Source of the DNA: Pelagibius sp. Alg239-R121
Lineage (GTDB): Bacteria > Pseudomonadota > Alphaproteobacteria > Kiloniellales > Kiloniellaceae
Direction of reading: 5' to 3'
Assembly (NCBI RefSeq): GCF_947331435.1
Contig: NZ_CAMZOF010000017.1
Location: 1 to 64,000 of the forward strand
Length of the DNA: 64,000 bases
Below are positions 25,249 through 60,545 of the stretch, one piece after another (positions within the stretch are counted from its first letter, which is position 1; each line of letters starts with the position of its first letter). The translations under genes were made by a program, and so were the position numbers. Under the pieces are notes generated by a model. The model was not told the DNA's origin. It did no database searches and was given only the letters and a program-made list of their open reading frames with translations.

Positions 25249-25660
25249 GTTGTTAGCCGCTGGCAAGAATCCTCGAACTTCCTAACAACCTTTACTGCTT
25301 GCCAATCGACATCTCGGAGTTACCCGGCCCAGTCATCGTGCCAAAAAACCACTGGCAGCGATCAGTTCCCTGATAGGGCCGTGACCCCTCACGTGGTGTT
25401 TACGGTTTTTAAATGAACAATGTTTAAACAATTCCTATAAAGCATAAACGTTTTGCAAATTCGCGAGGTCCTCGAAGTATCACAGGAAAGTCCACGTCAA
25501 TGAAACCACAGTTGCTTGTGGCTTCCTTAGGTTTTTGAGGCAGGGAATCCGAGAAACCGTCGTCATCATATCCATCAATTAACACGGAATAAATCTCAAT
25601 GAGTACCCAATCTAGTAACTCGATTAAGGCTAGTAGGTGGGACGTACTGTGCTGCCCATC
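25048..25660. repeat. 28-bp inverted repeat bracketing element A
   Basis: 25048-25075 and 25633-25660 are perfect inverted copies of each other (GATGGGCAGCACAGTACGTC and the 8 bases after it). The second copy lies antisense at the 5' end of the sensor gene at 25689. It is a piece of the DUF1612-like fragment duplicated in inverse orientation, so a rearrangement occurred here. Confidence 0.7.
25402..25449 (+). promoter_or_regulatory. Triple TAAAC element, copy A (orphan)
   Basis: It has ACGGTTTTTAAAT, GTTTAAAC and CATAAAC. The half-sites are at offsets 9, 24 and 44, as in copies C and D (43027, 60498). No intact gene follows on this strand, although the next 50 bases still resemble the region after copy B. 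The element appears to have outlived its gene module. Confidence 0.6.
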
Positions 25661-25688
25661 TAGGCTGACGAAGAGGAGCGATTCGATT

Positions 25689-26324
25689 TTGGGTTTTCGC
25701 CGCCTTGCGGGCTTGGTTGTTACTTTCATATCGGTGTTTTTCCCGGGCGTTGCTTCAAGTGAAAACGAAATCTTCCGTGATTCGGTTGTGCAGGAAATCC
25801 GATCCTGGGCTTCGACTCCGGTCGTGTTCCTGGCACTGGGTGCGAGTAACGAGCGTTATGCCGACCTGAACCAAGCCGGGATCGACGCGTTAGATAAACA
25901 GTGGCTCACCGAGCGAGAAAAAAGTGATCAACCGCTGATCACTGCAGTGCTCTCAAGCCCACTCTCAAGCTATCTCACCATGATTCAATCACGATCACAT
26001 GGTCTCTATGCCGAGATAATCGTGATGGACGCAAAGGGTCTGAATGCTGGACAGAGCGCGGTCACATCTGACTTCTGGCAGGGCGATGAGGATAAGTGGC
26101 AGAAAACCTACCTCGTTGGTCCCGACGCCGTCTTCATTGATGAGATCCAACTAAATGAAAGACTGGGCACGGAAAACGTTCAGGTCACTCTGTCGATCGC
26201 TCAGAATGGCCAAGTTGTTGGGGCAATCACGGTTGAAATCAATGTCACTGAATTCCGCCGCCGCCGTGACACCGGAAAAGCTGAACTGCACCAGTTCTCG
26301 GGGAGAGAAAATGAAAATCGTTAA
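25689..26324 (+). CDS. Exported sensor-like protein (Cache-like), partner of chemoreceptor
   Basis: About 211 residues from the TTG at 25689, which has GAGGAG 10 bases upstream; the ATG at 25599 lies in rearranged DNA and adds 30 unrelated residues. A signal peptide ([21 protein letters not shown]) is followed by an extracytoplasmic domain. [14 protein letters not shown], then [16 protein letters not shown], then [19 protein letters not shown], is a pattern seen in Cache/PDC-type sensor proteins. The end overlaps the following chemoreceptor start by 14 bases. I infer that it is a periplasmic binding partner feeding that receptor. Confidence 0.7.
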
Positions 26325-27993
26325 CGACGCACGAATCTCCAACAAGCTGATCGCAGCCTTCACAGCACTCGTCTTTATCATCTTATGCCTCGCCGGCATT
26401 ACTTTCGTGGTTCTTGGTAAAGCGCAACAGAGTGTTGAACACACCAAACGCATCAACGAAATTTCGTTCGATATCAAAGAATTACGCCAGAAGATTTCCA
26501 GTCAACAGGCAGCAATACGGGGTCTGTTGTTAAGCGGTGACCGGGAATACATAACTGATTACGAAGTTGCCAAAACATCTTACACGACTCTGCTTGAGGC
26601 TTTGCAAGTACGTTTGAACATGGCGGAAGCCAGTGATCTCATGAATACCGCCAACGGTTTGATTTCGACCTGGCAAAACGAGATTGTCGCGCGGCAGATC
26701 AGTCTGATGCGCAATCCCTTAACCGTCGACGAAGCGCGGGTTCTCGAGGTGAATGGCCATGGCGAACGGATGTTGGTGAGAGCCAATGCAGATCTGACAA
26801 AGCTCAATGAGCTTGCTGTACAATTGACAGATCGCAACGTGCAGGCGATGGCTGATAAGCTTAACATTACACTTGGTGTTCTTTTGGTTGGTGCTACCAT
26901 TGCGACGCTCTTTTCGATTGTCGCCTGGTTTACCCTGTCGCGGACAATTGCAACCCCTATTAATGAAATGTCCATGTTTATGGACGAGATGGCGGAAGGG
27001 CATTACGATGAGTCGACGGCTAACCAGCAGCGACTTGACGAAATCGGTCAGATGGCCAAATCGGTAGAGTTCTTCCGGCAACGCCTGATCGAAAATCGTG
27101 AAATGGAGGCGCTGGCTGACCGACAGAACGAGGAAAAGGCGGTCCGAGCCAAACGGATCGAGAAAGTAACGAGCGAGTTCGACCATACCTCTACTCAACT
27201 GGTTTCCAGCGTGGCGGATGGGTCGGCCAAACTGAAAAACGTTGCGATTTCCATGTCTGAGATAGCTGAACGCACTGAGCAGATGAGCGCCGATGTTGCC
27301 ACTGCTGCGGAACAAGCCTCGTCGAACGTGGAGACGGTGGCTGGTGCGACGGACGAGATTAACTCGGCGCTTTCGGAAATTGCCGTGCAGGTTTCCCGAG
27401 CGACCTCCGTTGCCCAGTCAGCGGTGACAGCAGCGGGAGAGACAACACAAGTGATCAATGGTTTGCGCGCGCAATCCGACTCGATCGGCGACGTTATAAA
27501 GCTGATCAACGAGATCGCGGAGCAAACCAATCTCCTGGCACTCAACGCCTCCATCGAAGCCGCGCGTGCCGGCGAGGCGGGTAAGGGCTTTGCGGTTGTG
27601 GCCAGTGAGGTCAAGAGCTTAGCAACCCAGACCGCAAAGGCAACTGACGAGATTTCTACGCAAATCGAAAGCGTGCGCGGCGAGTCTGAAAATGCTGTGA
27701 TTGCCATTGGTCGTATCTCGAACGTCATTCAGCAAATGGATGAGATCACTTCGGCGATCGCCGCTGCAGTCACGGAGCAGTCGGCAGCGACGCAGGAGAT
27801 TGCCCGGAATGTTGCAGAAGCCGCCCGAGGTACGACGGATGTAACGGTGAACATTGTGGAAGTCAAAAGCGGTGCAGGTGAAACTGGTGGCGCTTCACGG
27901 GATGTCTTGGCTGCTTCAGACGAACTCTCAAAGCATGCCGAGTACATGAGTGAAACCGTTAAAGATTTCATTGCCGGTATCAAGGCAGCATAG
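26311..27993 (+). CDS. Methyl-accepting chemotaxis protein
   Basis: About 560 residues from [13 protein letters not shown], with GGGGAGAG upstream. TM1 (residues 14-34) is followed by an all-helical four-helix periplasmic sensor containing [21 protein letters not shown], typical of CHASE3/4HB-type domains. TM2 lies near residue 190. HAMP and the MA domain follow, with the conserved tip [33 protein letters not shown]. The start overlaps the upstream exported protein gene, pointing to one transcript and translational coupling. The in-frame extension back to 26155 is an artefact of that overlap. Confidence 0.93.
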
Positions 27994-28039
27994 AATATCG
28001 CAATCGGCGCGACGTCACCGTTCATTGAGGAATTGAAGG

Positions 28040-28440
28040 ATGAACACCGATACTGGCGCTACCGAACTCATTCGCCACGCCCGGTTTATGCGAGGTGTAA
28101 TCATTTCCAGCTACGCTAATGTCGAACTTCTGTTAACAGACCTCAACGTGCGCTGACGGTCACTACCTGAATATGCCGAAATATACATGGCCCTCCCGTA
28201 CTCTCTGAGCTCAACGATAATTTGTACGAAATAACTGGTCTAAGCGAATGGACCTCTAAACGCATACGCTGAGGAGATGCTCTCACTCATAGTGCGTATT
28301 TGGGTCTACGAGGAGGCTCGACACGACATTGCACACGGCCAGATGATTGTTAGTGCCCGAGACTCTGTATTCGCACCGATAATATTTCGGGTGTGTCAAA
28401 ACGGGAAGAAGGGTGACCTTGAGAACTGTAAAGCGAATCT
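28040..28440 (+). pseudogene. Degenerate copy of the 180-residue protein at 43559
   Basis: Just after the chemoreceptor, GAGGAATTGAAGG-ATG and the following 400 bases align with the gene at 43559. MNTDTGATELIRHA matches MNINTGTNNLIRHA, LLTDLNVR then a stop matches LLTDLNMR, and NAYAEEM and RVYEDARH counterparts follow. Several stops and frameshifts make it a pseudogene. It shows that this gene was once part of a copy of the repeated module here. Confidence 0.75.
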
Positions 28441-29003
28441 ATCGAGAGCGGTTTCGGGCTCCACCTGCCGTCACGAGCACACGACTAAAGTAGAGTCAGT
28501 ATCGGTCAATGAGGGCTCGATCTGGGCCTTCGCTGCGAAGTCAACCAGATGTCGGCAACGCGGATCAAAAATGATACTGTTTCATTATACGTGTAGAGAC
28601 GAAGTGGCGTTAATTGAGTCCTAGATCCCTTAGCGCGCGCCATAGGAGCAAAGCTTTTTTGTCATCCGTAACAGCGGCGCAGCTAATCTGCGAACCATCA
28701 ATTCGACGAGTCCCTCCCCTTGACATTGCCTACTGCTGCGTTGGAGATATTTCTTACCGGGGCTTTATCCTGACGCTTGATAAATTAAGGGACCACATGG
28801 AAGCAAAGCTGTTGAATACGCCTTTTCCGAATAACAGAAGTTAAAATCTAGCCGAATTTGTTCCACCAAAACCGTGCGATTACATTTCTGATCTCAGGAT
28901 TCGTTGTTTAACTAGGGAAACGGGCTACGATTTGTCATCCGGGAAAGCCAAATGGCTACCACGCTCTCCGGCTCAATCAATGTTCTTCTGACAATGCCAA
29001 ATG
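28441..29003. other. Non-coding stretch
   Basis: About 560 bases before the LysR gene end. A 76-residue plus-strand frame at 28614-28844 has no ribosome site or recognisable domain. I see no IS motif. Confidence 0.4.
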
Positions 29004-31904: not shown

Positions 31905-32138
31905 CAGCTGAGAGGCGAGAGACCATTCAAGTGTAGCATTATCGTACCCATACCCAAATCAGTGTCACCGCCCTGAAGCACAATCCCGCAGTGATTAAAT
32001 CGCGTGCAGACGAGGCCTGTCGCTTTTTGACTGTCACCAATGGGAACGCTTGGAGTGCGGGTTCCATGCTTTGCACAAAGATTTCCGCCGAAATCAGCCG
32101 ATACCCTGATCGTGACAAGACTCCTCACATGTGTTTTT
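31905..32138. other. Intergenic region before element B
   Basis: No gene. Unlike copies C and D, the roughly 90-base conserved leader before the triple TAAAC element is not clearly present here. Confidence 0.35.
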
Positions 32139-32187
32139 ACGGTTTGTAAATGAAATTATGTTTAAACATATTTTGAATAGTATAAAC
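32139..32187 (+). promoter_or_regulatory. Triple TAAAC element, copy B
   Basis: ACGGTTTGTAAAT, then GTTTAAACATAT, then GTATAAACATTTT. The half-sites are at offsets 9, 25 and 45 (one base longer than the other copies in the first gap). It stands 122 bases upstream of the PAS gene start. The DUF1127 gene present in copy D is missing: the leader jumps from a GGACAGGTGACCCG motif directly to the PAS ribosome-site region. Confidence 0.7.
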
Positions 32188-32308
32188 ATTTTCGATGCAC
32201 GAACTCTCGAAAGTCGCCGGAAAGTCGAAACCGACGAAGCCCTAGGTAACTGTGACTTGCCAGAGTTAGACGGACAGGTGACCCGAAATCGTAAAAGCGA
32301 AAAGAACC

Positions 32309-32806
32309 ATGAACCCAATAGAATTGTCCCAATTATGTTGCAGTCACCCTGTTGCTATTTTTGCGAAACACTTCAGTGAGCTAGATCGGACAGTTTGCCC
32401 TTTGGCTCCACTTTGGTCGGACTTTGATCCCATGCAGGTAGCCGGACTCCTTCAATGGATGATGGTCATAGGGCGGCAAGATATAACCCTGGAAGGACAT
32501 GTCATTCGGATCATGGGGGAGGGAGTAAAACAAGTATTTTCGATAAACCTGACCAATATGAATCTGGGGGTCATCTTCGACCAAGAAACGATCGCAATCC
32601 GTTGGAAAAATGTAATCGACGTCGCTGAAACGCGGAAACCGTCATTTCATACAAGCTGCGTGCCGGTCGAATCTCGAAGCTTTATTCAGCTTTATCGCGG
32701 TTGCTTCCCTTTCTGCGACGAAAATCGCGATATCACCCGCCTCATCGTTGTCGTTGCACCTGTCGATTCTCGCGGATTACACCTCTATGAATATCCAACT
32801 CAGTAA
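32309..32806 (+). CDS. PAS-domain protein (module copy B)
   Basis: 165 residues, nearly identical to the protein at 60998. The N-terminal helix (MNPIELSQLCCSHPVAIFAKHFSELDR) is followed by a PAS-like core. LWSDFDPMQVAGLLQWMMVIGRQ, then HVIRIMGEGVKQVFSINLTNMNLG, resembles the alphaproteobacterial PAS_5 layout (xxWxDFDPxxxxxLLPWMM...YRLxGTxxxxxFGxxLTG). The end RLIVVVAPVDSRGLHLYEYP is the last PAS strand. No output domain is present, so it may sense or signal by protein contact. Duplicated modules, a shared promoter element and close sequence conservation show that it is under selection. Confidence 0.72.
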   Translation: MNPIELSQLCCSHPVAIFAKHFSELDRTVCPLAPLWSDFDPMQVAGLLQWMMVIGRQDITLEGHVIRIMGEGVKQVFSINLTNMNLGVIFDQETIAIRWKNVIDVAETRKPSFHTSCVPVESRSFIQLYRGCFPFCDENRDITRLIVVVAPVDSRGLHLYEYPTQ

Positions 32807-32842
32807 ATTGCAGAACAAAGAAGGCCGATTGGACCGCCCCAG

Positions 32843-33561: not shown

Positions 33562-33763
33562 TGGAAAGCAAGATAAGTATGCTGTCCCTTTGCCAACGTA
33601 AATTCTTGCAGCGTCAGCCCGTAGCGAGCTTTGCCACATCTTCATACGATGAATACGCATGCCTCAAGCAAACAAGCTCATGTCACTTTGGCCAGGCTGA
33701 AACTTTGCAATGAAAAACGAAATTATAGGCGTTTATCCTCAAACACACCGCGAGTGAACGTAG

Positions 33764-34270
33764 ATGACAGCAAAAATTTTTATTAAGCCTATTAAAACTG
33801 AAAACATCGAAAGTTTTCATCAGGCACTCGATAGAGTTGCGCGTGAAAGAAAGTACCTGAATTACTTTCAATCACCCCCGCTAGAGGAGGTCAGAGAATT
33901 TGTATTCAGCAATAATAAGCAGGGCAGTCCGCACCTGATTGCGTCATTTGAAGGTGAGGTTGTGGGTTGGTGTGATATCCGACGACACCATTTTCAATCT
34001 CACGCGCATCGCGGAACGCTTGGTATTGGAATCATCCCAGAGTTTCGCGGTAACGGTTTAGGTGCGAGACTTATTCAGTTGGCGATCGAATGCGCGACGG
34101 AGGTCGGCTTTTCCCGCATCGAACTTGATGTCCGCGCAGACAATTTTCGAGCAATTGCACTATCCGAGAAAGCTGGATTCGTCAAAGAAGGTGTTCTGCG
34201 CAACGCCGTGTTAGTCGACGAAGAGTTTTTTGACGTCGTTGCAATGGCTCTTGTCCACCAAAGTGAATGA
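33764..34270 (+). CDS. GNAT N-acetyltransferase (module copy B)
   Basis: 168 residues, about 90% identical to the protein at 61628. The GNAT fold is clear: GEVVGWCDI (beta-4), GTLGIGIIPEFRGNGLGARLI (the acetyl-CoA pyrophosphate loop, RGNGLG), ELDVRADNFRAIALSEKAGFVKEGV (the RimJ/L-like C-terminal motif). It probably acetylates a protein N-terminus or small amine. The non-coding DNA before its start is also conserved with copy D, so the intergenic DNA moved with it. Expression is probably from the module promoter. Confidence 0.88.
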   Translation: MTAKIFIKPIKTENIESFHQALDRVARERKYLNYFQSPPLEEVREFVFSNNKQGSPHLIASFEGEVVGWCDIRRHHFQSHAHRGTLGIGIIPEFRGNGLGARLIQLAIECATEVGFSRIELDVRADNFRAIALSEKAGFVKEGVLRNAVLVDEEFFDVVAMALVHQSE

Positions 34271-34309
34271 ACACAGGTGCACGACGCTTCTCGCACAACA
34301 GGCAAAACG

Positions 34310-35731: not shown

Positions 35732-37738
35732 TTAGCTGTCAAGCACCCGTCGCAATGCTCTGGCGAAGTCTTCTCGATCGAAAGGCTTCTGCAGAAATTC
35801 CGCATCCGAGTCGAGCCTTCCTTGGTGCACGATGGCGTTTTCGGTATAACCTGACATGTAGAGTACCTTAGTCCTTGGCAGCCGACGTTTGGCCTCAGTG
35901 GCTAGTTCGCGCCCATTCATGCCACCCGCCAACACCACATCGGTCACGAGTAAATCCACATCGTGTGCCGTTTCGAGTTGCTCCAAGGCCGCTGCACCGG
36001 TTGCAGCCTCGATCGTTCGATAACCCAGTCCAGTCAGCAGAAAAACCGTGAAATCGCGTACGTCCTCGTCGTCCTCGACCAACAGCACGGTCTCACCATG
36101 GGCCGTCGGCACATCGTCCAGTGCTTGTTTCGGTTTGGCAGCTTCTACCTCGCTTGAACGTGGCAAATAGAGCTTGATCGTCGTTCCGTCACCTTCCTCG
36201 CTATAGATCGAAATATGTCCGCCCGACTGCTTGACGAAGCCGTAAACCATGCTGAGGCCGAGACCGCTGCCAGACCCTAACGGCTTAGTGGTGAAGAAGG
36301 GCTCGAACACATGCTTGAGATTCTCAGGCGACATCCCACACCCAGAATCTGTGATCGCCAGCATAACATACTGACCCGGGCTGACGTCGGCCTGGGCGGC
36401 CGCGTAGTGCTCGTCGAGCCGGGTATTCGCGGTCTCCATGGTCAATTTTCCTCCGTCCGGCATGGCATCCCGGGCATTGATCGCTAGATTGATCAGGGCA
36501 TTCTCAAGTTGGGCCGAATCCACCTCACAATTCCAAAGACTGGCTGCGGTAACGGTCTCAATTTCGATATGCTCCCCCAGGGTGCGGCCTAACAAGTCTG
36601 TTGTATCGGCAAGCAGATTGTTGGCATTTAGTGATTCCGGGCGCAGAACTTGCTTACGGGAGAAGGCCAGCAGGCGTTGTGTGAGTTCGGCGCCACGCCG
36701 AGCCGCGCGCGTCAAGGCATTTAGCCTCGAATGTTCGGCACCAAGCTGATCAGCGAGCAAGCCTGCATTGCCTGAAATCACCGTCAGCAGGTTATTGAAA
36801 TCGTGCGCGACGCCAGCCGTAAGTTGGCCAACGGCTTCCATTTTCTGGGCCTGCCGAAGTTGCTCCTCTCGCTGGACGGACTCGGTGATGTCAACCGTTA
36901 TGACTAGTGTGCCGCCATCAGGTGTCCGGAGTTCGCGTATCTCATGCCAGTGGCTCGTCACATCGCTGACTTGCACCCTGGTGACGCTCGGTGGCTTGCT
37001 ATGCCGCTGCATGCATCTTTTCAGCCATTCCTCTTCGCGTCCCACTGCCTGAGTCAGAAATCCGCGTGACAACAGCGCCCGGTGGAACTCCTCAAAGGTG
37101 GCGCCTAGAAAGTCATGTCCCAAGAGATCCAAAGATCGTTGACGGGCAACGACATTCTGATAGATCACGCGATCATCGCTGTCGTACAACCGAACCATAT
37201 CGGGCGTACTGTCCATGGCGTCAAAAAAGCGAAGATCGGCTATTTCGGCAGCTTTTCGCGCCACTGCTTCCGCTTCGCGCAAGGCCTGCTCGACCCGCTT
37301 TCGCTCCTCGATTTCCGCTGAGAGCGCCACCTGGTATTGATAGAGCTTCAGGTGTGTGTCGACCCGAGCGATAACCTCTTCCGCTGAGAAGGGCTTGGTA
37401 ACGAAATCCACGGCACCCATGGAGAAGCCCATAACCTTGTCAATTGATTCCGTTTTCCCGCTGATAAAAATGACTGGAACATGAACGAGTCGATCATCTT
37501 CCTTGAGACGGCGGCAGACCTCGTAGCCATCCATGCCGGGCATCACCACGTCTAGAAGGACTAACTCTGGGAGTGTGGCCTGAGCGGCCCTGATAGCGAG
37601 TTCACCCCGCTTCGCCGGGTAAACATCGTGACCACGTGCGCGCAAGATCTGCGATAACACCCGAAGATTGTCCGGCGAATCATCGACAATCAGAATACGT
37701 CCAGTTTCAAATTCAAACAGGGAGTCGGCCATTTCCAT
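35732..37738 (-). CDS. REC-PAS-histidine kinase-REC hybrid sensor kinase
   Basis: About 668 residues, cytoplasmic, no signal peptide. An N-terminal REC (GRILIVDDSPDNLRVLSQIL, then ELVLLDVVMPGMDG) is followed by a coiled linker and a PAS domain (MDSTPDMVRLYDSDDRVIYQN). The HisKA H-box is GQLTAGVAHDFNNLLTVISGN. The HATPase_c domain has NALINLAINARDAM and GSGSGLGLSMVYGF. A C-terminal REC (TVLLVEDDEDVRDF, then DLLVTDVVLAGGMNG) ends it. The start (37738 or 37732) overlaps the end of the upstream kinase by about 25 bases, so both are made from one message and probably form a phosphorelay. Confidence 0.9.
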   Translation of the reverse strand: MEMADSLFEFETGRILIVDDSPDNLRVLSQILRARGHDVYPAKRGELAIRAAQATLPELVLLDVVMPGMDGYEVCRRLKEDDRLVHVPVIFISGKTESIDKVMGFSMGAVDFVTKPFSAEEVIARVDTHLKLYQYQVALSAEIEERKRVEQALREAEAVARKAAEIADLRFFDAMDSTPDMVRLYDSDDRVIYQNVVARQRSLDLLGHDFLGATFEEFHRALLSRGFLTQAVGREEEWLKRCMQRHSKPPSVTRVQVSDVTSHWHEIRELRTPDGGTLVITVDITESVQREEQLRQAQKMEAVGQLTAGVAHDFNNLLTVISGNAGLLADQLGAEHSRLNALTRAARRGAELTQRLLAFSRKQVLRPESLNANNLLADTTDLLGRTLGEHIEIETVTAASLWNCEVDSAQLENALINLAINARDAMPDGGKLTMETANTRLDEHYAAAQADVSPGQYVMLAITDSGCGMSPENLKHVFEPFFTTKPLGSGSGLGLSMVYGFVKQSGGHISIYSEEGDGTTIKLYLPRSSEVEAAKPKQALDDVPTAHGETVLLVEDDEDVRDFTVFLLTGLGYRTIEAATGAAALEQLETAHDVDLLVTDVVLAGGMNGRELATEAKRRLPRTKVLYMSGYTENAIVHQGRLDSDAEFLQKPFDREDFARALRRVLDS

Positions 37739-42879: not shown

Positions 42880-43026
42880 GTCGTTCGCCGCGCGGTAGAA
42901 TCTACAGCCTCGCCAGCATCCTATACAGCTTGCCAATTGATAGTTCGAAATTGCCTGGTTCAATCATCGTGGACGCTGGTCGCGGCGGGCATATCCCCGT
43001 CTCGACGTAGTACCCCACTTAATTTT

Positions 43027-43074
43027 ACGGTTTGTAAACGAAAGATGTTTAAACATATATTGATTAGTATAAAC
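43027..43074 (+). promoter_or_regulatory. Triple TAAAC element, copy C
   Basis: ACGGTTTGTAAACGAA, then GTTTAAACATAT, then GTATAAACATTC, with half-sites at offsets 9, 24 and 44. The 90 bases upstream (from about 42935) also match copy D (GATAGTTCGAAATTGCCTGG). The leader after it (GGACAGGTGATCCGCGAGCG) matches copy D up to the DUF1127 start. Confidence 0.7.
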
Positions 43075-43162
43075 ATTCTTTCAAGTACGCGAACCACCAG
43101 TACCTGGGTTCAAAGGACAGGTGATCCGCGAGCGGTCGAACCGGAATCTGATGGAGCGCACC

Positions 43163-43372
43163 ATGAAAACCAGTCACCAGCTTCCCAACTCCGGCAAACG
43201 CTTCCGGCAGAGTCCCGCCGAGCGGCCTGACCGCCGGATTGGCGCCGGGATTGCCCGTTGGCGCCAACGGTGCGCCGCGGTTTGCGACGAAAATCGAGAT
43301 GTCACCTGCCTTATCGTCGTCGTTGCGCCCTTCGGTTCTCGCAGAATGCATCTCTATGAAAAACCAACCTAG
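43163..43372 (+). CDS. DUF1127-PAS tail in-frame fusion protein
   Basis: 69 residues. The N-terminal part (MKTSHQLPNSGKRFRQSPAE, then IARWRQR) is the DUF1127 protein of copy D (MKFTYQPPNPGKRFRQSPAD). From about residue 38 it turns into the end of the PAS protein (CDENRDVTCLIVVVAPFGSR, then MHLYEKP). A deletion removed the DUF1127 core and most of the PAS gene yet kept the frame and the PAS stop codon. It keeps the module promoter and leader, so it is probably expressed. Whether the product folds is unknown. Confidence 0.6.
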   Translation: MKTSHQLPNSGKRFRQSPAERPDRRIGAGIARWRQRCAAVCDENRDVTCLIVVVAPFGSRRMHLYEKPT

Positions 43373-43547: not shown

Positions 43548-43558
43548 GGAATTGAAAG

Positions 43559-48361: not shown

Positions 48362-49426
48362 TCATTCTTGAACCGTCACCGTCGATTGCTCTGCAGTACC
48401 CTCGCAGTATCCGGTGATGACGTTGGCAACGTTTGTTCCGAGCGACTCCATCGCGTAGCCACCTTCCATCACGAAATGAGTGGGCAGGCCGGTGGCAGCA
48501 AGGCGTTTGCCGACATCGATGTAGTCCGCGGTCTGGAGTGTGAACCCGCCAACCGGGTCGCCTTCGAATGTATCGACACCCAGCGAGACAACGAGAACCT
48601 CAGGTGCATATGCCAAGATCCGATCAAGAGCGACTTGAAGCGCCCTCGCCCACTCTGTGTAGTCTGTTCCGCGAGGCATTGGCAGATTGAGGTTAAATCC
48701 TTTACCCGCGCCCGTGCCGGTTTCAGTGTCATACCCCATGAGGAAGGGGTATTCATCCTGCGGTCGGCAATGCAGCGAGGCAAAGAACACATCCGCGCGA
48801 TCGTAGAAGATGCGCTGCGTACCGTTGCCATGGTGGTAGTCGATATCGAGCAGGGCCACACGTTTTGCGCCGGCATTCAGGTGCGCCTGTGCAGCGATGG
48901 CTGCATTGTTGAGATAGCAGTACCCGCCCGCAAGATCCTGCGAGGCATGGTGTCCGGCCGGACGGCACACCGAAAAGACAGCTTGCTCGCCAGCTTTCAT
49001 TAGGTCCACTCCGGTCAGGGCAATATCCTTGGCGGCGTTGATCGCCGTCCAGGTGCCCGCAACGAAGGGCGCGCAGACATCGAACGTATAGCAGCTGAGC
49101 ATGGAATGTACGGATGCATTCGGAACCTGGTCCATGCCCCGCATTCCGAATGTATAAGCCGTGGCAAAACGCCCGGGGCCGAATTCCTCCTCCCAGAGCG
49201 GATAGCAGTGCTGCAGAAAGCTGACGAAAGCAGGGTCGTGGATCTGATGCACGACATCCAACCCGTATACGTCAGGTGCGACGATATCTGTGAACCCGGC
49301 CGCTTTCAGCCCGCCCATAATCGCATCCATGCGTTCGGGGCATTCAGACATCGGAATCATCTCGTCATAGCGCATTTCCATGGCCCCTGCATGGCCACGG
49401 TGATCTTCCGAATAAACGAGTTTCAT
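48362..49426 (-). CDS. Histone deacetylase-fold amidohydrolase (acetylpolyamine aminohydrolase-like)
   Basis: 354 residues, zinc hydrolase. GHHASQDLAGGYCYLNNAAIAAQ has the tandem-His region, VALLDIDYHHGNGTQ carries zinc-binding Asp and His, and SLGVDTFEGDPVGGF carries the third ligand Asp. This class removes acetyl or other acyl groups from polyamines and related amines. It is the last gene of a minus-strand operon; its start overlaps the permease stop by 4 bases. Context with a betaine-type transporter and a GMC oxidase suggests deacylation of an imported N-acylated amine (inference). Confidence 0.9.
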   Translation of the reverse strand: MKLVYSEDHRGHAGAMEMRYDEMIPMSECPERMDAIMGGLKAAGFTDIVAPDVYGLDVVHQIHDPAFVSFLQHCYPLWEEEFGPGRFATAYTFGMRGMDQVPNASVHSMLSCYTFDVCAPFVAGTWTAINAAKDIALTGVDLMKAGEQAVFSVCRPAGHHASQDLAGGYCYLNNAAIAAQAHLNAGAKRVALLDIDYHHGNGTQRIFYDRADVFFASLHCRPQDEYPFLMGYDTETGTGAGKGFNLNLPMPRGTDYTEWARALQVALDRILAYAPEVLVVSLGVDTFEGDPVGGFTLQTADYIDVGKRLAATGLPTHFVMEGGYAMESLGTNVANVITGYCEGTAEQSTVTVQE

Positions 49427-51528
49427 GCCGCACCTTTCTGAAGTCGTGCTTCGTGATTGCGTTGCCAGGCGCGGCAGAACCTGTCGGCCGTGATGGCGAT
49501 GATCGCCATGCCGAGACCCGCAACGAAGCCCTGTCCGAAATTGCCCGCACTAAGACCGACATAGACCTCTTGTCCGAGATCGCTTGTGCCGACGAGAGCT
49601 GCGATCACGAGCATCGCCATGCCATACATGATCGTCTGGTTCAGTCCCAGCATGATATTGGGCAGCGCCAGTGGCAGTTTTACCTGGAGAAGAAGCTGCA
49701 TGGGCGTAGCACCGATACAGGTTGCTGCTTCAACCACATCCTTTGAGACATGTCGCAAACCGTGCTCGGCATAGCGGAAGGCTGGAACGTAGGCGTAGGA
49801 GATGATTGCAAGAAGCGCTGTAAAGTCGCCGATCTTGAAAAGCATCACGATGGGGATCAACAGCACGAACGGTGGCATGGTCTGCAACGTGTCGTTGATC
49901 GGGCGCATTAAACGCGAAAACCAGTCATTCTGCGCAGCGATAATCCCGAGGGTTGTGCCAATAAGGAATGAAGCGAGGACCGCCAGCGTGGTCAGATGGA
50001 TCGACAGCATCGCCTTGTCCCATGACCCGGAGACCAACAGGAATGAGAGCGCCAGCGCGGTGCCGGTCGCCAAACCCGAACCGCCCATCCGCCAACCGAA
50101 ATAGACAAGGATTGCCACGCTTGCTGGCCAGGGCATGTCGGCGATGCCGACCAAAAGCACCAGCGCGCCAAGCACGACAGCGATGGCGAGCCTCACGCGC
50201 CCAGCGTGGATGGCCGCCACGGTTCCAGCCAGGACCAAGACTGCATATACCGCCGTGTGCCAGGGTTGCCACCCAAACCCCCACGTGAACGGGCTGACGG
50301 CCTTGTCGAGACCGATCTTCAGCGGTAGCATGACAAAGAAGATCACGCTGTTCTTCATGGCTTCGAGTAGCGGCTTGAATGCCAAGATGAACCACTGGAT
50401 TGCCTGATCCAGCGGCTCGGCGAGATCAATCTGCCAGGTCTCCGGCCACGCGCCCAGGATGGGCAGGGCCGGGCGCAGAACGATCAGGAGCGCAATCGAG
50501 CCGGCAATGGCGAACCAAAACCCGTAGCGCTTCAGGAAACCCCGGTGTTCGAGGCCTCTGCCCTCGCGCTCTGCCATTCCGAAGGTGATGCGGTCGAGGA
50601 TCATTGCCATCAGAGCGATGACGATCCCCGCGACAAGGCTTGCTCCGAATTCTGCCTTGCGCATGGTCGACAGGACTTCCCAGCCGATATCAGCGGTGCC
50701 GCCGATCATCGACGCGATGATGACCATCGAGAGCGACGCCATGGTCGTCTGGTTCACGCCGACCAGGATCTGGCGCCGGCCGGCAGGGAAGCGGACAAGC
50801 CAGAAGAGCTGCGCGCGGTTAGCCCCCGACATCTGCCCGGACTCGATGATGTCAGAGGGCACATCACGCAACCCGAGGATCGTGTTGCGGACCATCGGCG
50901 GGAAGGCAAACAGCACCGAGGCCACCAGGCCGACAACCGGGCCGAAGCCGAACAACAGAAGGATGGGCAAAAGGTAGGCAAAAGCAGGCACGGTTTGCGC
51001 AATTTCGAGAACCGGGTTCAAAGCCCGTTCGACCCGTTTCGAGGCGAATCCCCAAACGCCCAGAACGAACCCCACCAGAACGGCCAATGGCACCGATATG
51101 AAAACCAGCGCGAAAGAATTCATCGCCTCGGTCCACAACCCGACGGTCAACACATAGACAAGGCTGAGGGTGGTGAAGACAGGAAGCCCTGCGCCCCGTG
51201 CCTTGAAGGCCAAAGCTGCCATGACCAGGACGAAGCCGCTCCACGGCAGCCAATGCAGCGTTTCCCGGATCCACCCCATGGGGTATGTGAAAACCAGCGT
51301 TACGGTCTGGAAAACTGCCCTGAAGTTGGCGACGATCCAATCCATGCCAATGTTGAACCACGCCTCCACCGGAAGCTGCAACGCTTCGGGAAAGGTCTCC
51401 AGCCAGTCAAACTGCGCCTGTGCCAGAACGCACAGCAGTGCGAACACGATCACCGCGAGCCAGCCCGCCCGGACATCGGCCCGGACCTTCGCGGTCGGAA
51501 CCGTCTGGATTGCGTCAGCTTGCGACAT
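49423..51528 (-). CDS. ABC transporter permease, fused double domain (betaine/quaternary amine type)
   Basis: About 701 residues from the ATG at 51528, overlapping the ATPase stop by 14 bases. Two BPD_transp_1 permease units are joined in one chain, each with an EAA-like loop: RDVPSDIIESGQMSGANRAQLFW in the first half, RHVSKDVVEAATCIGATPMQLLLQVKLP in the second. About 14 TM segments are visible. Single permeases of the ProW/OpuAB family have one unit, so the fused pair replaces a dimer. It forms the inner-membrane pore of the uptake system. Confidence 0.92.
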   Translation of the reverse strand: MSQADAIQTVPTAKVRADVRAGWLAVIVFALLCVLAQAQFDWLETFPEALQLPVEAWFNIGMDWIVANFRAVFQTVTLVFTYPMGWIRETLHWLPWSGFVLVMAALAFKARGAGLPVFTTLSLVYVLTVGLWTEAMNSFALVFISVPLAVLVGFVLGVWGFASKRVERALNPVLEIAQTVPAFAYLLPILLLFGFGPVVGLVASVLFAFPPMVRNTILGLRDVPSDIIESGQMSGANRAQLFWLVRFPAGRRQILVGVNQTTMASLSMVIIASMIGGTADIGWEVLSTMRKAEFGASLVAGIVIALMAMILDRITFGMAEREGRGLEHRGFLKRYGFWFAIAGSIALLIVLRPALPILGAWPETWQIDLAEPLDQAIQWFILAFKPLLEAMKNSVIFFVMLPLKIGLDKAVSPFTWGFGWQPWHTAVYAVLVLAGTVAAIHAGRVRLAIAVVLGALVLLVGIADMPWPASVAILVYFGWRMGGSGLATGTALALSFLLVSGSWDKAMLSIHLTTLAVLASFLIGTTLGIIAAQNDWFSRLMRPINDTLQTMPPFVLLIPIVMLFKIGDFTALLAIISYAYVPAFRYAEHGLRHVSKDVVEAATCIGATPMQLLLQVKLPLALPNIMLGLNQTIMYGMAMLVIAALVGTSDLGQEVYVGLSAGNFGQGFVAGLGMAIIAITADRFCRAWQRNHEARLQKGAA

Positions 51529-52597
51529 GGGTGTTGTCCTGTCCAAGTGCGGCGAGGGACTTGATCAAGGAAGCCGGTGTCACGATCCCCAAGTCTGCGC
51601 CCGTCGTGTCATGGACGGCAACACCGTCAGGATGTGCGGCCAGTTTGCTGATCAGGTTTTCAACCGGCTCCTCGGCGGCAACCTGCGGCATGGTTGACGC
51701 ATCGCCATTTGCGGGGACTGCGCAGGCGGCGGTCTTCAACAGCCTGATCCGCGGCACCTCGGATGTGAAACGCGCCACATACTCGTCCGCCGGGTTCAGG
51801 ATCAAATCGGTCGGGGTTCCGATCTGCACGACCTTTCCGTCGCGCATAATCGCCATGCGGTCAGCGATGCGCAATGCCTCAAGGAAATCGTGCGTGATGA
51901 AGACGATGGATTTGTGCAGCACCCGTTGGATGCGCAGGAATTCGTCCTGCATCTGGCGACGGATAAGTGGATCGAGCGCTGAAAACGGCTCGTCAAGGAA
52001 CCAGACGTCAGGCTCCACAATGAGCGAGCGGGCAATGCCGACCCGTTGCTGTTGCCCACCCGAAAGCTGCCCCGGCAACGCATATTCGCGTCCCTGAAGC
52101 CCCACCAGCTCGATGACGCGCTCGGCTTTCTGTCGCTGCTCGAGGAGAGGTTTTCCTTGCAGTTTCAACGGGAACGCCACGTTTTCCATGACCGAGAGAT
52201 GCGGCAGAAGACCGAAATTCTGAAAGACCATGCCCATCTTGTGGCGCCGCACCTCGATGAGTTCCTTGGGCGATTTTGCCAGAAGGTTGTCCCCGTCAAG
52301 GAGGACCTTTCCGTAGGACGCGTCCACCAGCCTCGACAGGCAGCGAACAACTGTCGACTTGCCCGAACCGGAAAGACCCATGATCACGAAAATCTCACCG
52401 ACATGAACATCGAAGCTCACGTCGATGGCGGCCGGAACGTGACCTTCGGCGCGCATCCGCGCTGCAAGACTGTCGACATCAATCGAATAACCGGATGTGT
52501 CAAAGTAATAGTCGAGTTTCGATCCGTAGACTTTCCACAGGTTTCGGCACGATAGCTTGACAGCACCGGTCGTCGTAGCACTCGACTGGTCGATCAT
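51515..52597 (-). CDS. Quaternary-amine ABC transporter ATPase (ProV/OpuAA type)
   Basis: 360 residues. Walker A GLSGSGKST, Q-loop VFQNFGLLPHLSV, signature LSGGQQQR, Walker B VWFLDEPFSALDP, His-switch ITHDF. A ProV-specific N-terminal extension with a KLDYYFDTSGYS insert precedes the ATPase. The C-terminus (VENLISKLAAHPDGVAVHDTTGADLGIVTPASLIKSL) looks like a single degenerate CBS motif, less than the CBS pair that senses ionic strength in OpuA, so it may not be an osmotic switch. A stem-loop separates it from the upstream binding-protein gene. Confidence 0.93.
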   Translation of the reverse strand: MIDQSSATTTGAVKLSCRNLWKVYGSKLDYYFDTSGYSIDVDSLAARMRAEGHVPAAIDVSFDVHVGEIFVIMGLSGSGKSTVVRCLSRLVDASYGKVLLDGDNLLAKSPKELIEVRRHKMGMVFQNFGLLPHLSVMENVAFPLKLQGKPLLEQRQKAERVIELVGLQGREYALPGQLSGGQQQRVGIARSLIVEPDVWFLDEPFSALDPLIRRQMQDEFLRIQRVLHKSIVFITHDFLEALRIADRMAIMRDGKVVQIGTPTDLILNPADEYVARFTSEVPRIRLLKTAACAVPANGDASTMPQVAAEEPVENLISKLAAHPDGVAVHDTTGADLGIVTPASLIKSLAALGQDNTHVAS

Positions 52598-52621
52598 TTG
52601 GACCCTCCCAAGTTGGACGTC

Positions 52622-52648
52622 GGCAACCCGGCTCGAAAGCCGGGTGCC
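52622..52648 (-). terminator. Intercistronic stem-loop after the binding-protein gene
   Basis: ACCCGGCT-CGAA-AGCCGGGT with an outer GGC/GCC extension, in the 61-base gap between the SBP and ATPase genes. There is no T run. Such a hairpin usually protects the upstream message or attenuates readthrough, so that more binding protein is made than ATPase. Confidence 0.6.
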
Positions 52649-52658
52649 TTGGTCTGGT

Positions 52659-53597
52659 TCATTGAATCCAGGGGGTCCATGTTGCTTCGTTGTCAGCGAT
52701 CCACTCGGCGACGACCTCTTTCAACGAACGCCCCTTCTGATCGATTTCGTTGATCATGATGTTCTGCTGTTCATTGTTCAGGGTGAACTCTTCGATGAAC
52801 GCAGCGGCGTTCGGCCATGTCGCGGCGAAGTTGTTGGAGACGATCTTGTTGACGCTGGCCTGTGAAAAGCCGCAGGCGGTGTCTCGAACCTGTTCTTCCT
52901 CGATGCATTCGCCCTCCACCTCGTTCCATTCGACCCATTTCATGTCGACCTCGGCAAACACCCAGTGCGGCTGCCAGAACATCATGATGATGGGCGCTTG
53001 CGAAGCGAGTGCGCTTTTGAGTTCGGCAACCATGGTGCCTTCTGACCCACCGGGAACAGGATTGAACGGCAAGCCGATCCCTTCAACGACCGACTTCGAT
53101 CGAGTGCCCCAGTCTGCGGGATAGGTAATCAGTCGGCCATTCGGAAAGGTCTCTGCTGTGGCGAATGCCTCGGCGCAATCAAAAAGCGCCTGGTAGCTCG
53201 GAAGTCCCGGACACGCCTCTTCCATGTAGGCGGGATAGATCCAGCTTTCGCGCGGCTCTAGCCCCAGGCTCCCCATGTTGACGATGGCACCCGTCTGTAG
53301 GCCGTCGGTATAGATGTCGGTGACAGAGTTGTCCCAGACCTCCGGATTGAGGTTGATTTCGTTCTGCGCCAGCGCAGTGAACTGAGGCAGCCCTCCGGCT
53401 GTGACAAGCTCGACGTTATAGCCCATCTTCTTGAGCAATTCGGCGGCGATGTTGGCAGAGATATGTTGCCCGGTCCATTCGTTGATCGCGATGCGGATCG
53501 GTTCATCGGTTTCCACCTGTGCCCACGCAGCAGGCCCGCTCAGTGTGAACGCGCTCAGGGCAAGCACGCCAATCGCTGTCTTCGGGGTCAGTTTCAT
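52659..53597 (-). CDS. Quaternary-amine ABC transporter substrate-binding protein
   Basis: 312 residues. A Sec signal peptide (AIGVLALSAFTLSGPAAWAQ) is followed by an OpuAC-type domain: IRIAINEWTGQHISANIAAELLKKMGYNVELV and MFWQPHWVF. Scattered Trp residues (EWTGQ, FWQPHW) could build the aromatic cage for a trimethylammonium or related cation. It would capture the substrate in the periplasm. Two Cys pairs (CPG, DCAEA; CIEEE, ACGF) suggest disulfides. It precedes the ATPase and permease genes in the operon. Confidence 0.92.
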   Translation of the reverse strand: MKLTPKTAIGVLALSAFTLSGPAAWAQVETDEPIRIAINEWTGQHISANIAAELLKKMGYNVELVTAGGLPQFTALAQNEINLNPEVWDNSVTDIYTDGLQTGAIVNMGSLGLEPRESWIYPAYMEEACPGLPSYQALFDCAEAFATAETFPNGRLITYPADWGTRSKSVVEGIGLPFNPVPGGSEGTMVAELKSALASQAPIIMMFWQPHWVFAEVDMKWVEWNEVEGECIEEEQVRDTACGFSQASVNKIVSNNFAATWPNAAAFIEEFTLNNEQQNIMINEIDQKGRSLKEVVAEWIADNEATWTPWIQ

Positions 53598-53617
53598 TTT
53601 TCTCTCCTGTTGGTCGG

Positions 53618-55378
53618 TTATTGTGGCGCGCCTTGAAGCAGCGCAGTACGCAGCGCTTCTCGGTCCTTCGCGTAGTCACGCGTGATCGCGGAGGAACGCT
53701 GGCACGTCGCCCAGTTCGGATCGGCCAGGATCGGGGCATCCTCGATCGGAGCGAGGCGCTGCCCGCGAACCAGATCGGCGGCGCGTTCGGCCATGACCAG
53801 TGTCGGTGCATTCAGGTCGCCGGCGGTCGCCCGAGGCATGACCGAGCTATCCACAACGCGCAGGCCCTCGAAACCCTTCAGCTTCATCGTCAGAGGATCG
53901 ACGACAGCGTCGTCGTCAGTGCCCATCCGGCAGGTGCCGCACGGGTGATAAGCGCTTTCCACCTTGTCCTTGAGAAATTGGTCGAGACAGGCGTCATCTT
54001 TGCATGCCGCGCCCGGCGCCAGTTCCTTGCCACGGTAGGGCGCAAGGGCTGGCTGGGCAAATATCTCGCGCGTCAGCCTGATGCAGGCGCGCATTTCAAG
54101 CCAGTCATCGGGATGTGTCATGTAGTTGAACCGAACCCGTGGGAGGTCCTCCGGCATTGCGCTGCGCAGCTTGACCCAGCCGCGGCTCTTTGAGCGCTTG
54201 GTGCCGACGTGTACCTGGAAGCCGTGTCCTGTGGCCATGGACTTGCCATCATAGGAGATTGCAAGCGGCAGGAAATGAAACTGGATATCGGGATAGACGA
54301 TCCCGGCCCGGCTGCGGATATGGCCACCGCTTTCAAAGTGGTTGGTCGCGCCCAATCCCGTGCGGGTCATGATCCAGCGTGCGCCGATAAGTGCCTTTCC
54401 AAAGGGGTTCATATACGAAAAGAGCGTCACGGGTTCGCGGCACTCCATCTGAAGATAGATCTCCAGATGATCCATAAGGTTTGCGCCCACGGCGCCCCGG
54501 TCGGCGATCACAGGGATCCCATGCTCCTTCAACTGCTGCGCAGGACCGATCCCGGACCGCATGAGGACGGCAGGAGACATGATCGATCCGGCGCTGAGGA
54601 CAACGTCGCGACCGGCTTTCGCTCTCATCGGCTTGCCATTCTGCGAGAAAAGAACACCCGTGCATCTGCCGTCCTCGAAGGTCAGCCGGTCCACCAGCGC
54701 ATGCTTGATCACCCGGACATTGCCGCGCCTCATGGCAGGGTGCAGATAGCCCACCGCCGCGCTCGACCGGACGCCATTGCCAACCGACATTTCCATCGGG
54801 CCGAAACCCTCATGCTGACGGTCGTTCATGTTCTCGCTGACGGCATAGCCAGCTTGTCGGCCTGCTTCCACGAAGGCACGGTAGAGCGGATTGGCCTCTG
54901 CACCACGCCGCACCGAAATCGGTCCGTCAGTGCCTCTGAGTGACCCGCCGCCCCGAACGTTTTCCAGCCGTCTGAAGTAAGGGAGCACATTGGCCCAGTG
55001 CCAACCATCGGCACCAAGCGCCGACCACAGCTCGTAGTCCATCGGATTGCCGCGCACCCAGCACATGCCGTTGATGGACGACGACCCACCGAGCCCCTTG
55101 CCGCGTGGAAGGTTCATCACCCTGCCATCTAGGCCCGGCTCTGGCTCGGTGGTCATACCCCAGTTGAAGCGCGTGGTATTCATGGGAATGGACAGCGCAG
55201 AGGGCATCTTCACGAAGATCGAGTTGTCGCTGCCGCCGGCTTCCAGAACAAGGATCCGCATTGAAGAATCCTCGCCCAACCGCGCCGCCATGACACAGCC
55301 AGCCGAACCGGCGCCTATGATCACATAATCATAGGTCCCGGCATCCGCGGTTTCGCTCACGCTGATCGATCCTGGCAT
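53618..55378 (-). CDS. GMC-family oxidoreductase (choline dehydrogenase-like)
   Basis: 586 residues. FAD-binding GxGxxG reads YDYVIIGAGSAGCVMAARL; GMC signature 1 is GKGLGGSSSINGMCWVRG; the catalytic His lies in SAYHPCGTCRMG, and the C-terminal block is SVMPRATAGDLNAPTLVMAERAAD (with D for the usual N). These fit BetA-like flavoenzymes that oxidise primary alcohols such as choline or amino alcohols. Between the transporter and a cupin gene, it would oxidise the imported compound. It is 20 bases from the SBP gene on the same strand. Confidence 0.93.
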   Translation of the reverse strand: MPGSISVSETADAGTYDYVIIGAGSAGCVMAARLGEDSSMRILVLEAGGSDNSIFVKMPSALSIPMNTTRFNWGMTTEPEPGLDGRVMNLPRGKGLGGSSSINGMCWVRGNPMDYELWSALGADGWHWANVLPYFRRLENVRGGGSLRGTDGPISVRRGAEANPLYRAFVEAGRQAGYAVSENMNDRQHEGFGPMEMSVGNGVRSSAAVGYLHPAMRRGNVRVIKHALVDRLTFEDGRCTGVLFSQNGKPMRAKAGRDVVLSAGSIMSPAVLMRSGIGPAQQLKEHGIPVIADRGAVGANLMDHLEIYLQMECREPVTLFSYMNPFGKALIGARWIMTRTGLGATNHFESGGHIRSRAGIVYPDIQFHFLPLAISYDGKSMATGHGFQVHVGTKRSKSRGWVKLRSAMPEDLPRVRFNYMTHPDDWLEMRACIRLTREIFAQPALAPYRGKELAPGAACKDDACLDQFLKDKVESAYHPCGTCRMGTDDDAVVDPLTMKLKGFEGLRVVDSSVMPRATAGDLNAPTLVMAERAADLVRGQRLAPIEDAPILADPNWATCQRSSAITRDYAKDREALRTALLQGAPQ

Positions 55379-55395
55379 TTTTCTTCACCCAACGG

Positions 55396-55773
55396 TCAAT
55401 CAATCATCACGTAGTATTTCAGCATCGGCTCGGACTGTTTCCAGAACCCACGGAAGCCTTTGGGCACAAGAAAGGCGTCACCCGCACGATAGGTTTCAGA
55501 GAAGTCGTCGTTTTCAAGTGTGACGGACCCCTCCAGCACATACATGAATTCGTCGCATGGATAATCTTCATAGAAATCCGTGTAGGGTTCTGCCCTCCAG
55601 ATGCCGGCACGAACACCGGGCGTTTCCCGCCTGAAGTAAATGTGATCCTGTCCGACCGCTTCGCCTTCGACAAGCTGTGCAGTTTCCAATGGCACGTTCG
55701 GACTGGTGGTCCAACCTTCGGGACCGCTGGCCAAGAATTTCACCGGGTTCTTCATGTTCGGGAATCCATTCAT
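55396..55773 (-). CDS. Cupin-domain protein (cupin_3-like)
   Basis: 125 residues with one cupin barrel: motif 1 region WRAEPYTDFYEDYPCDEFMYVLEGSVTLEN and motif 2 GDAFLVPKGFRGFWK. It matches the DUF861/cupin_3 group (ureidoglycine- or ethanolamine-linked small cupins). The usual metal His are partly absent (PCDEF), so enzymatic activity is uncertain; it may instead bind a small ligand. It is the first gene of the operon, divergent from the LysR gene 107 bases away. Confidence 0.85.
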   Translation of the reverse strand: MNGFPNMKNPVKFLASGPEGWTTSPNVPLETAQLVEGEAVGQDHIYFRRETPGVRAGIWRAEPYTDFYEDYPCDEFMYVLEGSVTLENDDFSETYRAGDAFLVPKGFRGFWKQSEPMLKYYVMID

Positions 55774-58113: not shown

Positions 58114-58133
58114 CACGACATCCAATCCAAGGT

Positions 58134-59890: not shown

Positions 59891-59923
59891 AAAAAAACAG
59901 GGCCGGTGTGAGTCCCGGCCCTG
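59891..59923 (-). terminator. Rho-independent terminator upstream of the SRAP gene
   Basis: On the minus strand CAGGGCCGG-loop-CCGGCCCTG is followed by seven T. It sits 33 bases before the SRAP start, in the same direction, so it ends an upstream transcript or works as an attenuator. Confidence 0.8.
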
Positions 59924-59991
59924 CTTAGGTTGAATTTGCGAAGTTGAGCCTGGGATTGGCTCATTTCTTTTTGTGGCTTGGGGAAGCTCAC
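59891..59991 (-). ncRNA. Candidate small RNA or attenuated leader of about 100 nt
   Basis: A consensus-like promoter on the minus strand (TTGATA at 60025-60020, 16 bases, TAGAAT at 60003-59998) would start a transcript near 59991, which ends at the terminator at 59891-59897. In between is a second hairpin (TGAGCC-7 nt-GGCTCA). The result is a compact structured RNA. It could be a free small RNA or a leader controlling SRAP. A short frame inside (MSQSQAQLRKF) could be a leader peptide. Confidence 0.45.
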
Positions 59992-59997
59992 GCTACA

Positions 59998-60025
59998 ATT
60001 CTAGATAATCACAACCTGCTATCAA
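59998..60025 (-). promoter_or_regulatory. Sigma-70-like promoter for the candidate small RNA
   Basis: TTGATA, 16-base spacer, TAGAAT on the minus strand, one mismatch from consensus in each box (TTGACA, TATAAT). Confidence 0.55.
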
Positions 60026-60405
60026 CAAAAATTGTAGGTTGCATTGCTCTTAACGGAAAAGTTGTCCGGCCGGGCCTGTGGGGGTCGAGTCCGGTAGGGG
60101 GCAGAATCGTACGATAACGAATGCAGCCATTCGTTCGAGCTGCAACGAAGGTCCGGAAAGAGCCCTCCACGTAGAATGCTGCGCTCCGAACCAAGGACGC
60201 AGAAGGACTCCAAGCTGCCGTTTACTGAATTACGTATAGTGTTAACTGCGCCTTCCGTTAAGGTCGGAAATGCGGACGGATCGAAATGGAAATTCCGGAC
60301 CTTAGCCGCCGTTCGCACCAGGCCTCAGGTTTTGCAGCTACGATCCTGAAAGCTGTCATTGGGGTAGATTCCGGCTAGGGGCAGACCCCATCTACACAGA
60401 CTTCC
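60026..60405. other. Non-coding stretch with an imperfect direct repeat
   Basis: GGGGTCGAGTCCGGTAGGGG at about 60081 and GGGGTAGATTCCGGCTAGGG at about 60362 are imperfect direct copies flanking 280 bases of degenerate DNA. No gene seen. Confidence 0.4.
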
Positions 60406-60497
60406 CATCGATAGTTCGAAATTGCCTGGCTCACTCATCGTAGACGGTGATCGCGGCGGATATCTCCTCATCTCGATGTGATGCCCCACATGATTTT

Positions 60498-60545
60498 ACG
60501 GTTTGTAAACGAACAAAGTTTAAACGTACACAAATACGTGTAAAC
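60498..60545 (+). promoter_or_regulatory. Triple TAAAC element, copy D
   Basis: ACGGTTTGTAAACGAA, then GTTTAAACGT, then GTGTAAACAC, with half-sites at offsets 9, 24 and 44. It is preceded by the conserved leader (GATAGTTCGAAATTGCCTGG at about 60411) and stands 88 bases before the DUF1127 start. This is the most complete copy of element plus module. Confidence 0.7.

Follow-up and report, generated by a model that had tools for sequence, protein, structure and literature searches.

What is the short non-coding element that recurs four times, each time ahead of a gene, on contig C17 of Pelagibius sp. Alg239-R121? The assembly comprises 8.02 Mb in 48 contigs; C17 measures 67.1 kb, and the window, by which we mean the whole stretch of DNA analysed here, covers 64.0 kb of it. 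The initial annotation had seen in this element a cooperative binding site through which a regulator would control a small regulon. We suggest that it is probably a multi-site operator array, which stands in promoter regions, is read by one sequence-specific regulator, and has been spread by duplication and kept by selection. The earlier proposal stands insofar as a conserved non-coding array does precede a small set of genes, but it had left out the duplications on the accessory contigs and the shared descent of the copies.

The four copies in the window lie where they had been placed. The ACGGTTTNTAAA...GTTTAAAC pattern matches at 25402, 32139, 43027 and 60498, always on the plus strand, and the three-site pattern has exactly four matches within the window; in either case 100 shuffles gave none. 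Across the whole genome the strict pattern again yields four matches, every one in C17. A sequence profile made from these copies, A to D (profile R1), finds four further ones in the genome, E to H, and so brings the total to eight, the remaining three of its 11 rows being opposite-strand shadows of known copies. A second profile, R2, made from all eight, recovers the same eight at 62.8-71.3 bits and, in a strictly filtered search of the order's 60 other genomes, gives no hit at E<=0.001. Its matches in the window, all on the plus strand, span 25377..25454 (copy A, 67.1 bits), 32113..32192 (copy B, 67.7 bits), 43003..43080 (copy C, 70.3 bits) and 60473..60551 (copy D, 69.8 bits), and the R1 profile places copy E at C22 2769-2826 (minus strand), copy F at C18 51848-51900 (plus), copy G at C20 37344-37399 (minus) and copy H at C27 4903-4950 (minus). 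All eight sit on contigs of 67 kb or less, spread over five of them. A fifth, looser pattern match, on C4, is absent from the hits of both profiles and was taken as chance.

In the eight-copy alignment the element is AT-rich with T-A steps and consists of three octamers with the overall consensus KTNTAAAC, preceded by a pyrimidine-rich block, YCYCNCNT, which ends about 11 bp ahead of site 1. Site 1 has the consensus TTKTAAAY, and in the window, where all sites lie on the plus strand, it reads TTTTAAAT in copy A (25407..25414), TTGTAAAT in copy B (32144..32151) and TTGTAAAC in copies C (43032..43039) and D (60503..60510). Site 2 is GTTTAAAC in all four (25422..25429, 32160..32167, 43047..43054 and 60518..60525). 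Site 3 is more varied, with GCATAAAC in A (25442..25449), GTATAAAC in B (32180..32187), C (43067..43074) and F, GTGTAAAC in D (60538..60545) and E, and GTTTAAAC in G and H. Sites 2 and 3 follow GTNTAAAC with a single exception, the GCATAAAC of copy A, which departs from it by one base, so that all seven fixed bases are kept in 15 of the 16 octamers at these two sites. The site 2 and site 3 variants are swapped in G and H, which argues that the third base is free and that the unit is one motif. The initial annotation had described three TAAAC half-sites, at 1-based offsets of 9/24/44 in three copies and 9/25/45 in copy B; these offsets agree with the sequence and the sites are present, but site 1 ends in TAAAT in A and B, and the repeated unit is longer than TAAAC, being GTNTAAAC with its free third base. 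From start to start, sites 1 and 2 are 15 bp apart in seven of the eight copies (16 in B), and sites 2 and 3 are 20 bp apart, also in seven of the eight (19 in G).

Bases between the sites vary while the sites themselves stay, as had been noticed for the window copies. Pairwise comparisons among A-D agree in 131/144 cases within the sites and in 59/114 within the spacers; over all eight copies, the 24 site columns average 91% pairwise identity and the 19 spacer columns 50%, and the flanks stand at 59% (30 upstream columns) and 48% (7 downstream columns). None of 20,000 column permutations equalled the value for the sites.

The position of the copies is equally regular. Each of the eight precedes a start codon, on the strand of the gene concerned, at a distance of 82-149 bp (A 149, B 121, C 88 and D 88 bp in the window; E 122, F 82, G 136 and H 136 bp outside it), and the genome-wide motif scan that had been proposed therefore gives no random positions, all of its eight copies being upstream and co-oriented. 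Whether the hits lie upstream of DUF1127 or PAS genes, the other point proposed for checking, has a mixed answer: DUF1127 or MopJ-like PAS genes follow B, D, E and H, and broken-looking DUF1127 genes follow C and G, but A and F stand before chemoreceptor operons. Behind copy A, a gene for a 241-aa protein with no Pfam family at E<=0.01 (25599..26324, plus strand, as are all the window genes named here) is followed by a chemoreceptor with CHASE3, HAMP and MCPsignal domains (26155..27993, the longest frame, with a true start that is probably internal). The gene past copy B (32309..32806) encodes a MopJ-like PAS protein with 86-87% identity to that of block D, where copy D is followed by a DUF1127 gene (60634..60948), a MopJ-like PAS gene (60998..61495) and a GNAT acetyltransferase gene (61628..62134), the last of which has a relative behind copy B at 33764-34270. 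The frame past copy C (43163..43372) resembles D's DUF1127 gene at its start and the PAS protein in its tail, and looks like a deletion remnant that joins the one to the other. On the other contigs, copy E is followed by a MopJ-like PAS protein, copy F by a rhodanese and a dCache chemoreceptor, and copy H by a DUF1127 gene; behind copy G the expected DUF1127 start frame stops after 21 residues, and the domain is encoded by a different open frame, 81 residues long. The PAS assignment is a weak one: among five relatives scanned, PAS_5 exceeds its cut-off in the ortholog of genus-mate G002 only, and the PAS proteins score 16.6 and 22.0 bits for the MopJ family against a cut-off of 200.

The association also holds when approached from the genes. 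In a gene-first test, made up of two protein searches that preceded the profile search at a time when copies A-D were already known, the DUF1127 profile gave nine matches in the genome, and the element is present at all three that lie on contigs of up to 67 kb (C17, C20, C27) and at none of the six on larger contigs (C3 three times, C6, C10, C11). Of the six PAS-like matches, the ones on C7 and C4 are without the element, and it is present at the other four, which comprise a pair of full genes plus the remnant, all on C17, and a single gene on C22. For the chromosomal PAS gene on C7, and likewise for its orthologs in the genus-mates G001-G003, the first 500 bp upstream contain no such octamer. 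These chromosomal orthologs (L041, L020, L021, L022) have in common a different conserved stretch upstream, TTTACCC...TTNGGNTAAG, perhaps a promoter of their own.

Octamer pairs with at most one mismatch are similarly restricted, with 24 in 396 kb of small contigs and one in 1.1 Mb of large ones, in a scan that left out C39-C48 and parts of C17, C18, C19, C21, C23 and C24. In 21 of the 24 small-contig pairs the spacing is 15, 19, 20, 34 or 35 bp. The pairs that fall outside the sites of the element are one upstream of a MucR-family gene on C18, one on C18 at 11 bp, two overlapping copy B, with spacings of 27 and 47 bp, and the large-contig pair, at 24 bp on C1. The pattern GTTTANAC-N11/12-GTTTANAC finds seven of the eight copies (A excepted) in the whole genome, with no other match. 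Two single GTTTAAAC sites, at C18:21297 and C18:23101 (L136 1297 and 3101), have, by eye, degenerate partners some 18-19 bp off; one precedes a histidine kinase gene and the other a small frame, and they are perhaps weaker members of the same regulon.

C17 carries conjugation genes. Its Pfam matches include a MobA/MobL-helicase protein, a type II/IV secretion ATPase and TraD, and TraG was recognised by DNA likeness to plasmids. The contig is rich in segmental duplications (25034-25340, 27998-28443, 32288-32827, 33724-34274, 42921-43233, 43517-43962 and 60392-62138), and copies of the element have moved along with pieces of flank. At 74-88% identity, the duplicated genes are those for PAS, DUF1127 and GNAT proteins and for one protein without assigned family. 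The likeness of copies C and D, which the initial annotation had followed about 90 bases upstream, is there but reaches wider, 42921-43233 aligning with 60392-60704 at 79%. Because the copies lie on accessory contigs amid segmental duplications, their likeness comes in part from shared descent. The duplications appear to be of uneven age, with a synonymous divergence (Ks) of 0.70 for the PAS genes and 0.27 for the GNAT genes of the same two blocks; for the PAS genes of D and B, nonsynonymous divergence (Ka) is 0.08, and the two values together are a sign of purifying selection. Elsewhere on C17, a histone-deacetylase-like gene is clustered with glycine-betaine-type ATP-binding cassette (ABC) transporter, GMC oxidoreductase and cupin genes (48362-55773), a lamin-tail domain is joined to a DNA/RNA non-specific endonuclease (12735-14093), and two large hybrid histidine kinases are neighbours (35732-41807), one of them carrying a two-component regulator propeller.

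We conclude that the element is real, most likely under selection, and confined in its own genome to small contigs. Sites that are better conserved than spacers and flanks, spacings that are fixed, and eight out of eight positions upstream of co-oriented genes are the traits of an operator, and from them we infer that a protein binds the element, that it does so cooperatively, that it activates or represses the genes, and that a single regulator serves all copies. We posit that this regulator would read GTNTAAAC at the octamers, and, as these are near-palindromic and take the form GTTTAAAC, it would most likely be a dimer. It would occupy two sites with starts 19-20 bp apart, which is about two helical turns and would put both sites on one face of the DNA, and a third, weaker-looking site (TTGTAAAC) would lie 15 bp upstream of the two. 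DUF1127, MopJ-like PAS and chemoreceptor genes on plasmid-like contigs would in this way be switched jointly, as one small regulon. Duplication would have spread the array together with parts of the adjoining DNA, and selection would then have kept it while spacers and flanks drifted.

A two-site form of the element was sought with gaps of 7-13 in 23 family genomes, with the pattern read backwards as a control. Outside the own genome it gave seven rows at six places, five of these at 19-20 bp, against 16 rows for the reversed control among the 22 family relatives. Since the control is the commoner of the two, the number of pairs among relatives is at chance level and is no evidence by itself, and the octamer pairs in G009, G013 and G014 were taken as chance for the same reason. 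Among the genus-mates, G002 and G003 have a pair and G001 a one-mismatch pair in the intergenic DNA some 0.6 kb behind the orthologous mucR, and a MarR-type gene lies near the genus-mate pair. A further pair in G003 stands 75 bp ahead of a chemoreceptor-like gene, a family read from the sequence rather than scanned. In the own genome, the one-mismatch pair on C18 has a spacing of 19 bp and stands ahead of a MucR-family gene, at a distance of 96 bp from its likely start, or of 21 bp if an earlier ATG is taken. MucR/Ros-family matches number two on C18 (L135 16005-16520 and L132) and four on other contigs. Autoregulation by MucR as a general rule was rejected, as an upstream pair is found at just one of 15 MucR-family loci, with a downstream pair at three. 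The C18 MucR paralog is the sole concrete candidate for the regulator that we met, no whole-genome search for other regulators having been made. That a plasmid-borne module might wire unrelated sensory genes into the regulon of this paralog, through strict GTNTAAAC sites at 15/20 bp and with self-control via the two-site version, is an idea that we put forward as a long shot.

Several points weigh against an operator array. The sites had been picked as conserved, for which reason E-H were compared with A-D (348/384 in agreement at the sites, 151/300 in the spacers), and this comparison is not blind either, as conserved sites are favoured by the profile with which E-H were found. The circularity of site choice is eased by the gene-first test, although copies A-D had been known before it. 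With flanks in common by descent, the copies are not independent, and the DUF1127 genes behind C and G look broken. Outside the own genome, the searches of the order and of the class used strict filters that lose weak matches. In a class sample of 385 genomes, the own one included, nine others have weak matches of 16.5-19.4 bits; these were put down to chance, except for two in G003, which are two-site pairs. The two-site pairs of relatives carry their own difficulties besides the frequency of the reversed control. The pair behind mucR lies in an intergenic stretch without an evident promoter, G002 and G003 are closely related, the own genome has no pair at the corresponding stretch behind mucR, and the G003 pair before the chemoreceptor-like gene stands in the reverse sense.

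What else could have produced such a series of copies? They might be passive leftovers of a recent duplication of gene blocks, bound by no protein at all, on a contig full of segmental duplications where flanks of about 300 bp are common to C and D and to A and C and where the genes behind C and G look broken. Against this speaks that identity falls from 91% to 50% between sites and spacers within the same 45 bp, that G and H agree with A-D in 168/192 comparisons at the sites and in 60/148 in the spacers, that site 2 is identical in D and B despite the synonymous divergence of 0.70, and that unrelated chemoreceptor operons stand behind two copies; we regard passive likeness as quite unlikely. 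A sigma-factor promoter core, with site 3 as the -10 box (TATAAA in B, C and F), site 2 overlapping the -35 and perhaps an activator on site 1, has somewhat more to recommend it, given that the element stands ahead of genes and that GTATAAAC is similar to TATAAT. A sigma-70-like scan of copies C and D gave a single plus-strand match in C and none in D, no shared -35 is apparent in the eight-copy alignment, where a sigma-70 promoter would show -35 and -10 hexamers at 16-18 bp in all copies, and at site 3 copies D and E carry GTGTAAAC and copies G and H GTTTAAAC. An operator is also the better match for octamers that are near-palindromic and for the G003 pair in reversed sense, and we hold the promoter core to be unlikely. 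Structured RNA, as a leader or a regulatory RNA, is extremely improbable: a weak hairpin is possible between sites 2 and 3, yet its consensus energy is just -1.92 kcal/mol, the covariation term is unfavourable with a double change in one of eight pairs, and Rfam (gathering threshold) and tRNA scans found nothing in the window. We give equally little credence to iterons or to partition or recombination sites of a replicon; boxes repeated on plasmid-like contigs and a phage-type integrase gene 1.4 kb past copy C would fit, whereas the placement of all eight copies ahead of genes and on the gene strand, their scatter across five contigs and the two-site form ahead of genes elsewhere do not.

Two families of proteins come into question as readers of sites of a different kind. 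Operator boxes of GntR/HutC-type repressors have the form GT-N-TA-N-AC, which GTNTAAAC matches. NagR, in the part of its description available to us (PMC4333415), reads the outer bases of its box, for which GTGGTCTAGACCAC is an example, and such outer bases are not kept in the element; a scan for the GntR signature, too strict to count, gave none in 394,540 bases (the accessory contigs and 10 kb of C7) and one in 1.11 Mb of other stretches. We think a GntR/HutC operator very unlikely. The element might instead be a target of an H-NS-like silencer of the MucR/Ros family, its AT-rich tracts with T-A steps nucleating an oligomer on acquired genes. The available portions of two reports have MucR proteins binding AT-rich DNA with T-A steps and acting on motility, chemotaxis and acquired genes (PMC9779718, PMC10572780), and the pair upstream of the C18 paralog and those behind mucR in the genus-mates would agree with this. 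Yet the same portions report that no consensus is needed, and here both the spacing and the terminal G and C of the octamer are conserved, with upstream pairs as rare among the MucR-family loci as stated above. A MucR silencer target is in our judgement an outside possibility, and a multi-site operator array read by a sequence-specific regulator remains the reading that we favour.

Searches further afield add little to the distribution. The exact three-site pattern occurs in six stretches among 84,980 genomes, a collection that may lack the own genome's records; they belong to Paenibacillus, Sulfurimonas, a Daviesbacteria bacterium, Terrilactibacillus, a Clostridia bacterium and one uncultured bacterium, and were taken as chance with their contexts unstudied. 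IMG/VR has three such stretches. Distant blastn against 72,556 plasmid records left the D block unmatched and gave chance-level pieces only for two element stretches. A tblastn search with the PAS protein had no match, and a scan of genome contigs for this protein returned 22 pattern matches, none of which was confirmed.

What emerges is a compact putative regulon defined from sequence alone. Within an 8 Mb genome it comprises eight promoter regions, which are limited to small contigs and stand ahead of genes whose products are sensory or small regulatory proteins. If a protein does bind there, the element would show how genes that arrive on plasmids come under shared control, and would offer a handle on the plasmid DUF1127 and MopJ-like PAS paralogs. 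Should the regulator prove to be the plasmid MucR paralog, this would be relevant to the question of whether proteins of the MucR type can recognise specific sequences, since a strict reading of GTNTAAAC by the C18 protein would contrast with the published view that MucR requires no consensus.

In the literature we found no work that joins DUF1127, PAS domain, promoter and direct repeats, nor GTTTAAAC as the binding site of an alphaproteobacterial regulator; among the operator-related matches listed, none has the octamer. The CtrA box is TTAA-N7-TTAA, and the element shares with it the TTAA inside GTTTAAAC, but the full box is not seen in the eight-copy alignment, read by eye, in keeping with the misfit to CtrA noted in the initial annotation. 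MopJ of Caulobacter acts on CtrA, according to the available part of its description (PMC4432633). LdtR of Liberibacter likewise has AT-rich sites ahead of motility and other genes, but ATATTCCTTGTATTTTAA, the footprinted site given in the accessible parts of two reports (PMC5481520, PMC3999280), does not match the element when compared by eye. The operators of GntR/HutC repressors (the dre-sites of NagR and DasR) are alike in the form of the inner octamer and, as far as the available NagR account goes, differ in the outer bases that NagR reads. MucR/Ros target regions of alphaproteobacteria are alike in AT-richness and T-A steps, whereas the element has a fixed sequence, fully conserved in 15 of 16 octamers at sites 2 and 3, and a fixed spacing. 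Although a narrow literature search linked GTNTAAAC in its 15+20 bp layout to no named regulator, an operator array is a known kind of element, and multi-site bacterial operators share with the one described here a repeated near-palindromic box, fixed spacing, a place upstream of co-oriented genes and a background that drifts around them.

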